A stretch of DNA of 64,000 nt from Limnomonas spitsbergensis (Eukaryota; Chlorophyta; Chlorophyceae; Chlamydomonadales), in assembly GCA_037349105.1 (NCBI GenBank), contig JAYJMM010000109.1, positions 4,234,001 through 4,298,000 of the forward strand, read 5' to 3'. The first letter of the stretch is position 1. Each line of letters starts with the position of its first letter. The position numbers and the translations under genes are program-made. The notes beneath the pieces were generated by a model. It saw nothing but the letters and a program-made list of their open reading frames with translations, did no database searches and was not told the origin of the DNA. Positions 26,580 to 29,500 of the stretch are shown here, in pieces.

Positions 26580-29500
26580 TCACTCGTTTTCATCACCGCC
26601 CTCAGCACCCTCCTCATCGTTGATCTTGGGGGCAAGGTAGTACTTGACAAAGCCAATGTCTGTGATGCGGTACTCGACCACGAGGGGGATATCCTTGCTG
26701 AGGGCAATCTGCATAAAAAGCAGCAGCAAGGGACAACGTTCAGGCCAGGGGTTCAGGTCACAGGTTCAGGTACACAACATTTTCAGCTGACTGAATGAAG
26801 GCAATTGTGGCAACTCACCGGTACAGGTAGATAAATCTATGAATATAAAACATGATTTATCAATAACATTATAACATCAGAATTAGGCTTGTCACTCTCA
26901 AATATAGAATTTTGACACACCTTGACGGTTGTGCACAACGGCGATGCTTTAGAGAAGCTGTTCATGTATCTCAACGCGTAGGTCTGAGCCACCGGCTCAT
27001 GGAGGGTGATGCATGTCTGGCCATCTTGCTTGTCCGCAGTGGTGTTGTGCCTGCATGCCCGGTGATATGGGATTTTATAATACGGTACGGGGCTAAAAAG
27101 TCTAGAACTGCAACCAAAATTGCTATACTCATGTGGGCAGAACTGGCGTACACTTCTCGCCACAACTGTTGAAGATGCAAAGTATGAGGCCCGAAGGAAC
27201 GCATACACTTCTACATGAAGCCGAGGTAGCGACAGAGCTCCCTTTCCCTCGGACCTACGACTTGGGCAAGACGTAGAGATAGCAGAGGATAACCACTACA
27301 CAGCCAAAATCCTTGCTAAGAGTCTTGCGCTCTGCCAACTGAGCTAACCGGGCAGCATCGCCCAATGAGGGGCTCGAACCCTCGACCACAAGATATCATA
27401 GGTTGACCAGTCTGGCTGATCTGGATGAAAATCCTTCATTGTACATCCTCATATACATATCATTCAACCAACAGCTCTATTCCAAAATAATCGAGTTGCC
27501 TCTCTGGCTCCTCAGGTCGCTAGTATTAGGACGCGCATGGACGATTTCGTTCTTGGCCGTCAGCGCCCTTAGGACTATGGCGGCTTTTCCTGCCCTGACC
27601 GATATTTGGTGGCCTTGCTCAGTCCTCTTGCTTGTTTCCTGGTGGGGTGACGGCTGCGTCCTACCAGGTCTTGACAGGTTTTGCTTCCTTTAAGGGAAGT
27701 CAGAGTCGAGCTTCTTGACAGCCAGTGCCCCGTACTCTGGTTTTGCAGACAGTACATTTTGCTGCTATTTCAGGATGCGCAGAGCGCTTTGGCACTTGGC
27801 AGCCCTGTGCTGTTGCGACTATTTTTGGGGGCTTGCACCTCTGCCTTGCTGCTATCTCTTTTTTTTGTTTACTGGTATGGTCCTCTTTCGCAGTGGTTTC
27901 ATTTTGTTTGGTTCCTAGGTCTCTAGGATGTTTGATCTAGCCCCAAATCCTGTTGGGGCAACGGCTGTTCGGCGGCCAGCCTACTGTACAATCCCCTGAA
28001 AATGAAAATGAATGCTTTACTTTTTGGTACCTTCGTATGGCCGGGTCTATGGCCAGGTCTGCAGGGCTTTTGGTCTCTGTCTTTCTGGAGTTCTGTTGTA
28101 CTGGCAGGCCTTCCGTGAGTTGTTTAAGATGGATCTGGTCTGAACTAATCTGTCCCTCTGGGGTTAATCCTCTCGACCAACAGAGATATTTCCAGATCTA
28201 CATTCATTTCTTCCAGTCGCATGGCGTACGTGGCCTCCACTGTGTCTGACTAGTCGCCAGTCTCAAGACCTGAGTTTTCATGTCTACCTTCAGGAAAACC
28301 GGCTGCTCGTCGGATGATCTTCCGTTTACAAGGCAAAAGAAAATTAACGCAGAATAATCAAAATCCATTCAAACGCCTTCCCCTTTTCTGAGATTGATCT
28401 GGTCTGAACCAAACGGGCTCTCTGGGTCGATCCTCACCTTTTGAATAAGATCTTACCAGGTTATATTTGGCTTCTTCCCAATTATGTGGCTTACCTCGCC
28501 TGGATTAAGGTTTTATCCATCTGTCCAGAGATTCGAGTTTTCAGATCTAGCTGTAGGGATACTGGCTGCTCATTTTTTCAACCTTCTTTGCTTGCAGTTG
28601 TGGCAAGTTCAAGCTCCTTGAGCTTAAAAGAGACATCCTTTAGTTGACTTCGATTTACTTTCCTCATCTGTCCTGAATTTTAATGATTTGAGCTTAGGCA
28701 TTACCCCCGTCTGGCATCCTCATCAGCGTTCAGACGGTGCTATGCGCGGCAGCTGTGGAGGCTATGGAATGGGGGCGTCAGTACCTCAGGGCACTTGTTT
28801 GTGGTAGCAAGAAGGATAAAGCCAGGCTTGACCCCTCCCAGTCGTTAATCACAGCCCTCTTCCCCCTTCCTTCTTTGACAGCGGTGGATGAGCAAGCCAA
28901 TTTTGGTATTCGTGCTTCCCAACAGGCTGTAGTGCAATTTTTACAGGATTTTGTGCATCTGGCCTGTGACCCCTCTGGGTGGCAACAGGCGCCCCAGTCC
29001 CACCCCTTCCTTGGTGTCAGGGGGGCAACTGAGCAGGCAGGCTTGCAGCTTTGCCTTCCACCTGGGTGATGTGGGATGGTGATGCGTGATACCTAACCTT
29101 CCGAGGAGTTCCCTTTGCTCTGCTAGTCTGTTCCTGTTTCAGAGCTATTTCAGGATGCGTTTGAAGCTGTAGTCCTGGGTACTTTTTTGGAGGCCTGTCT
29201 GAGATATGACTTTGAAGCTGTAACAAACTTGAGAGATAACGGCTGCCCTGCTGCCGGCCTCGTGCAACCAAAACCATTGGGCAGGAGGCCTCGTGTGATC
29301 TAAGAAATCCAACAGAAAATATGTCGCTGTTGGCACAACTGGCGTCCCCAGATACCAGCAGCTGTTGGAAATAGTAAAACATTGCACCTTCCTGACAGAC
29401 ACATACCATGAAGGATCTGAATCGTAAGGCTTCCCCCCTAAAAAGGCTGCCGAACCAATTAGTTAAGCTACAATTACACAAACCCGCAAATTCAAAACCC

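Follow-up and report, generated by a model that had tools for sequence, protein, structure and literature searches.

A multicopy family of circularly permuted tRNA-Lys(CUU) genes, apparently without an ordinary counterpart, in the green alga Limnomonas spitsbergensis

The analyzed window, a stretch of 64,000 nucleotides from the Limnomonas spitsbergensis (Chlorophyta; Chlorophyceae; Chlamydomonadales) genome (GenBank assembly GCA_037349105.1, contig JAYJMM010000109.1, positions 4,234,001 to 4,298,000), contains a type II circularly permuted tRNA-Lys(CUU) gene with its junction at 37/38 (Table 1). The 3' half is encoded 5' of the 5' half on one and the same strand, the two are separated by a short intervening sequence, and the break falls between positions 37 and 38. 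When the halves are joined (73 nt) and supplied with CCA, ARAGORN reports a tRNA-Lys(CTT) with a full cloverleaf, in which the anticodon arm, the acceptor stem and the discriminator are intact and T8 and T33 are present; as in a normal eukaryotic tRNA gene, CCA is not encoded, and it starts none of the 12 spacers read. These results bear out an initial annotation of the locus, according to which the halves of a flawless tRNA-Lys cloverleaf occur in reversed order (as positions 38-73 and 1-37 around a 5-nt spacer), the break is exactly at 37/38, a TTTT follows the 5' half, and the gene is nested in an intron of PCNA, sharing its strand. On the unrearranged window sequence ARAGORN called no tRNA; a long-intron tRNA-Thr and 11 mitochondrial-type calls in the window were taken as false, the former because its T arm is common with the permuted gene and the latter because they stem from a lax mitochondrial mode.

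The host intron splits the PCNA codons ...TLR|HNTT, and the permuted gene lies on the PCNA coding strand, 266 nt 5' of the 3' splice site of this intron. Among the 120 hits listed of 315 for the joined PCNA exons, the best identities to named organisms are those to Chlamydomonas leiostraca (74%) and Haematococcus lacustris (72%); by E-value in the same list, the first rank is held by a metagenome protein at 70% identity, and ranks three and four by two contaminated-plant entries (47-48% identity). In a tree of the query and 18 hits, the query falls within an unresolved group together with chlamydomonadalean sequences and in no strongly supported clade. Judged by PCNA, the host would be placed in or near Chlamydomonadales. 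Lysine is encoded nine times by AAG and twice by AAA in the PCNA exons read. The window also contains several tandem repeats (Table 1), and a weak fluoride-riboswitch match at 5745-5817, inside the 36-bp array, was taken as chance.

Table 1. Coordinates of the features in the window, numbered from its first nucleotide
Feature	Position	Strand	Remarks
Four PCNA exon pieces read (span)	26583..30147	minus	PCNA homology; 5' exons and first exon ends not delimited
PCNA intron containing the permuted tRNA gene	27051..29555	minus	2505 bp, GT-AG (GTGGGT...CAG)
TATA-like element TATATGA	27449..27455	minus	61 nt 5' of the 3' half; matrix and search range set after sequences were seen
End of leader	27395..27405	minus	G at -3 (27397), predicted partner of C32 (anticodon-intron pair); 3-nt bulge (-2, -1, 38)
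3' half, tRNA-Lys(CUU) positions 38-73	27359..27394	minus	encoded first; B box in T arm; exact copy
Spacer ATGCT	27354..27358	minus	5 nt, position 73 to position 1; CCA not encoded
5' half, positions 1-37	27317..27353	minus	A box; anticodon CUU; C32 at 27322; exact copy
Trailer GCAAGGA, then TTTT	27306..27316	minus	TTTT at 27309-27306, Pol III-type terminator
Tandem repeat, 36 bp x 17	5662..6287
Purine-rich tandem array, 11-13 bp	18123..18833
Tandem repeat, 35 bp x 36	37541..38796

A search for each half, with up to 3 mismatches, throughout the 260-Mb assembly (124 contigs) yielded 61 places for the 5' half and 59 for the 3' half. Permuted order, in which a same-strand 3' half directly precedes, was observed for 56 of the 61 five-prime halves, and ordinary order, with a 3' half up to 400 bp downstream, for none of the 61. 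The five lone 5' halves comprise one at C82:24594 with a truncated 3' half, three in a tandem array with the 3' half shifted by one base, and one near the end of this array. In total, 49 of the 5' halves belong to the array, which lies on C36, and 12 are dispersed. Both halves are exact in nine of the 11 complete dispersed loci (C109, which is the window copy, C19, C25 twice, C62, C65, C82, C110, C112 twice and C120), C110 having one change and C120 three; together with 22 array copies this amounts to 31 exact pairs genome-wide. Such a recurrence of exact 36- and 37-nt halves in permuted order at 31 places in the genome is beyond chance and rules out a pair of accidental tRNA fragments. Spacer length is 5-6 nt at all 12 loci read (11 dispersed and one array copy). 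The dispersed copies keep both halves while their spacers differ, and among the flanks compared at eight loci only those of the C25 pair align beside the gene, save for a tRNA-Ser relic that C36 and C25 have in common. Viral and genome contig collections, queried with one Lys-specific pattern each for the same permuted arrangement, gave no matches; close kin are perhaps absent there.

The C36 array extends over about 6.065-6.175 Mb with a period of ~2135 bp (~50 units). Per-site variation among its copies is low in the 5' half (0.0028), the trailer (0.0033) and the leader (0.0041), as compared with about 0.009-0.017 in the flanks, and reaches 0.0176, a level comparable to that of the flanks, in the 3' half. 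Given this variability of the 3' half, and with 27 of the 49 copies changed in at least one half as against 22 in which both are exact, many of the arrayed genes may be dead. In one C36 unit the permuted gene is followed, ~108 nt past its 5' half, by another, degenerate copy of that half (GGTAGAGCGCAAGAATCTTACATGCACTC), which may be left over from the tandem duplication that created the permuted order.

An ordinary full-length tRNA-Lys(CUU) gene elsewhere in the genome had been named in the initial annotation as one of two findings that together would speak against a permuted gene; for this sequence none was encountered, in view of the absence of linear matches and of ordinary order at any of the 61 five-prime halves. 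The linear 73-mer matched the genome over half its length only (40 of 62 candidates scored). In 260 Mb, 0 matches were obtained for the linear anticodon-arm pattern GCAAGACTCTTA N0-20 ATCTTGYGG, and likewise for the linear 38-mer when as many as 3 mismatches were allowed; on these grounds an ordinary or short-intron tRNA-Lys(CUU) gene of this sequence was rejected. As a control, an ordinary tRNA-Ser(AGA) query returned 16 matches, seven of them full-length and linear. With a plant-type tRNA-Lys(CUU) query no candidate of any kind came up, so that this test carries little weight; the Rfam tRNA search (63 of 8791 candidates scored) gave no tRNA-Lys among the 20 read of its 57 matches; and the single match of a human-type tRNA-Lys(UUU) query is a tRNA-Trp gene. 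The permuted family has apparently replaced the ordinary tRNA-Lys(CUU) gene, a statement that, given the weak plant-type query and the small number of tRNA candidates scored or read, extends to ordinary genes of this sequence in this assembly. A separate observation from these searches is that 11 of 17 low-scoring tRNA hits read are members of one tRNA-derived, SINE-like repeat family, in which the anticodon loop is odd and the tails resemble each other (CCTGAGTGACTGGTAAAACCTCTCGGCGAT or a close variant).

In permuted tRNA genes, the A and B boxes stand in the wrong order. The stand-alone copies have, as a group, TATA-like sequence upstream, and a T-stretch follows downstream of the copies read. 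A run of at least four T starts at +7 to +19 at each of the 12 loci read. The eight stand-alone loci are AT-rich upstream (0.55-0.78 A+T at -70 to -30 vs. 0.48). Their highest-scoring TATA-like 7-mers are found between -46 and -64, and no control resampling out of 20000 attained the mean score of these 7-mers; the matrix and the search range (-75 to -25) were chosen post hoc, after some of the sequences had been seen. The match is good at both C112 loci, fair at C109 and C82, and poor at C19, C62, C65 and C120, so that the enrichment holds for the group of eight and is poor at some of its members. An additional motif, TTGTCATGA at about -40, is common to C82, C19 and one of the C112 loci (C112b). 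A U6-like promoter was not recognized, the conserved upstream sequence of the seven U6 copies read being unlike that of the permuted loci. This conserved stretch, around GATTGGGC and CCCCACCATCGCGA and without a TATA box of the permuted-locus kind, is perhaps the U6 promoter. Two further U6 copies contain insertions, of roughly 300 nt at C41:5707980-5708550 and of 20-30 nt at C4:483930-484210, and are either intron-like or broken.

A different arrangement is found at the two C25 loci and at C110, where 6 nt separate position 38 from the end of an intact upstream tRNA-Ser(AGA), whose internal promoter could thus drive both genes. The C36 unit has a decayed tRNA-Ser at the same place, shared with C25 and uncalled by ARAGORN. 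The presence of a decayed tRNA-Ser in the C36 unit where C25 and C110 have an intact one suggests that a Ser-Lys pair may have been the starting point of an array now headed by the relic of a promoter. Within C25:1150000-1159000, the two Ser-Lys pairs are 2318 bp apart, and upstream of one of them lies a partial tRNA-Ser (positions 1-55, C25:1153687-1153741).

Sequences around the junction were compared with the available descriptions of intron recognition by the eukaryotic tRNA-splicing endonuclease. The anticodon-intron pair used by this enzyme is formed between a pyrimidine located 6 nt upstream of the 5' splice site and a purine located 3 nt upstream of the 3' splice site (PMC8479045); for the human enzyme, a C32:G pair with a 3-nt bulge is shown (PMC10539383). 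In the permuted genes, C32 sits 6 nt before the 37/38 break, and leader position -3 is a G at all 12 loci read (11 dispersed and one array copy), making a C32:G-3 pair possible at every one of them. Among nine loci taken as unlinked (all eight stand-alone loci plus a single C25 copy), the G at -3 is the only invariant column of 30 leader columns; its occurrence in 9/9 has a chance of ~4e-6 if the position is neutral and the loci independent, with the proviso that the leader bases nearest to the gene may share ancestry.

Leader and trailer also pair with each other in predicted folds, most strongly at C25 and C36, where a compensatory change distinguishes the two junction helices (GTGTG in the leader and CACAC in the trailer vs. 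GCGTG and CACGC), and weakly in the window copy (-6.4 kcal/mol). For seven loci, shuffled leader-trailer partners were as good as the own ones in 22/5040 arrangements when 8 nt were considered, 306/5040 for 10 nt and 308/5040 for 12 nt, and a comparison with random flanks fades likewise (0.009, 0.06 and 0.20). On account of the invariant G at -3, and of a pairing signal that is seen at 8 nt but hardly at 10 or 12 nt, the C32:G-3 anticodon-intron base pair appears well supported and the longer junction helix only in part.

Overall, these observations make it highly probable that the locus is a type II (37/38) permuted tRNA-Lys(CUU) gene belonging to a multicopy family which has apparently replaced the ordinary gene and whose tRNA would be made via a circle. 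With the halves swapped and no normally ordered copy found, production of this tRNA would apparently require RNA cutting and re-joining through a circular form. In the working that we propose by analogy with the pathway of Cyanidioschyzon merolae and green algae, from which every RNA step is inferred, RNA polymerase III would produce a transcript with the order leader, 3' half, spacer, 5' half, trailer and UUUU, starting under the control of the upstream TATA-like element in the stand-alone copies (including that of the window) or, alternatively, by read-through from the internal promoter of the neighbouring tRNA-Ser(AGA). The transcript would fold so that the acceptor stem is closed by the 5-6-nt spacer, and the leader and trailer meet at the open anticodon arm. 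The tRNA-splicing endonuclease would then cut at 37 and 38, a ligase would join these two positions to yield a circle, and the spacer would be cut out by RNase P and tRNase Z before the addition of CCA. A more comprehensive reading, towards which we lean with modest confidence, is that this alga makes tRNA-Lys(CUU) only from permuted genes, a multigene family that is spreading and comprises two types of copy by promoter (TATA-led and tRNA-Ser(AGA)-led), and that the latter type gave rise to the ~50-unit array via decay of the tRNA-Ser into a leader.

Several other readings were considered. The family could be a dead repeat, i.e., remnants of tandem or retroposed tRNA copies that spread in a satellite- or SINE-like manner and yield no functional tRNA, as might be suggested by the ~2135-bp array with its 27 of 49 altered copies, by the truncated copy at C82:24594 and the three changes at C120, and by the existence of a tRNA-derived repeat family in this genome. 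Copies of a dead repeat are expected to decay like their flanks. In the array this is the case for the 3' half but not for the 5' half, and at the dispersed loci it is not observed, nine of the 11 complete copies being exact in both halves despite differing spacers and compared flanks; together with the invariant G at -3, the nearby T-run and the failure to find a linear tRNA-Lys(CUU) of this sequence, this makes the dead-repeat explanation improbable. We consider it even less probable that the permuted RNA is not chiefly a tRNA but a tRNA-like non-coding RNA, a role ascribed to YrlA, a Y RNA of bacteria. The Rfam YrlA model (RF02553) aligns end to end in 38 of its 40 genome matches (46 of 8991 candidates scored), all of which are at permuted Lys loci, with the window and C82 copies not among the matches listed; this apparently reflects a similar order in the tRNA-like part of the model. 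However, the best score (47.3 bits, at C110) and that of the window copy aligned separately (34.7 bits) are, like all others, below the gathering threshold of 69, so that the loci are not assigned to this family; 13 of 14 control genomes also give below-cut-off matches; and the tRNA is unimpaired in its anticodon arm, acceptor stem and discriminator, and another source of it was not found. It is just as improbable that the intronic copy is mainly a regulator of PCNA, its Pol III transcription or cleavage affecting the mRNA and its tRNA being secondary, since the location on the same strand of a 2505-bp intron, shortly before the 3' splice site, would fit such a role but the window copy is one of 11 complete dispersed loci and resembles the other stand-alone copies in its anatomy.

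If the preferred reading of a functional permuted family is correct, the existence of 56 pairs in permuted order, including 31 exact ones, apparently without an ordinary gene, would mean that the circular route is able to supply a heavily used tRNA. Such a family would also show that permuted genes multiply and move much like ordinary tRNA genes, and that they are missed by standard tRNA annotation. Should the permuted genes be the only source of this tRNA, circular tRNA intermediates would be abundant in this alga, not rare. Moreover, the side-by-side occurrence of Ser-Lys pairs that are intact and Ser leaders that have decayed, as well as of a truncated copy and an additional 5' half, would render the origin of permuted genes and their gain of promoters directly testable.

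Among the organisms available for comparison, Auxenochlorella belongs to another class, Trebouxiophyceae. Like here, its permuted tRNA genes are in a green-algal nuclear genome, where they were found after tRNAscan-SE had given an incomplete set (PMC12633428). The 2014 review by Soma (PMC3978253), in its accessible part, puts the number of permuted tRNA genes at 34, distributed over six algae and an archaeon, gives the Lys(UUU) gene of C. merolae, of another junction type, as the sole Lys entry, and states that Chlamydomonas reinhardtii has no permuted tRNA genes; further nucleomorph cases have been described (PMC4494063). The initial annotation had the phenomenon known from C. merolae and prasinophytes, the range in these sources being wider by the nucleomorphs, an archaeon and Auxenochlorella (PMC3978253, PMC4494063, PMC12633428).

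Among the closest known counterparts of the genes described here are, going by the accessible part of the same review (PMC3978253), the type II genes of Ostreococcus and Micromonas, which likewise have the 3' half first, the junction at 37/38 and, in some cases, an AT-rich upstream region. They differ in their identity (Ser, Leu, Cys, Arg, Asn and iMet vs. Lys(CUU) here), in their longer spacers (11-64 bp vs. 5-6 nt) and in their number, with one entry per anticodon and species, except for two of O. tauri Ser(CGA), one of them marked atypical, as compared with 11 complete dispersed loci and an array. For O. lucimarinus the review notes an additional 5' half close to a permuted gene, as is the case in the C36 unit. 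The tRNA-Ser genes of the Bigelowiella natans nucleomorph share the 37/38 junction and a 5-bp spacer with the present ones, but are just two in number and reside in a reduced relict nucleus rather than in a 260-Mb green-algal genome (PMC3978253). In C. merolae, the pathway through a circular intermediate has been demonstrated; its permuted genes have, as here, an upstream TATA and a downstream T-stretch, include one for Lys(UUU), and exhibit several junction types with at most two gene copies per tRNA (Gly(CCC)), no array or tRNA-Ser leader being reported in this part of the review (PMC3978253). A literature search over titles and beginnings of abstracts of open-licence papers returned no permuted tRNA gene from Chlorophyceae, and within the same scope no large family or array of permuted tRNA genes and no tRNA-Ser-led case. 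Overall, the sequence comparisons point to a known kind of gene, the type II permuted one, in an apparently unreported form: with no ordinary counterpart of its sequence found, multicopy, dispersed as well as arrayed, and partly led by tRNA-Ser.
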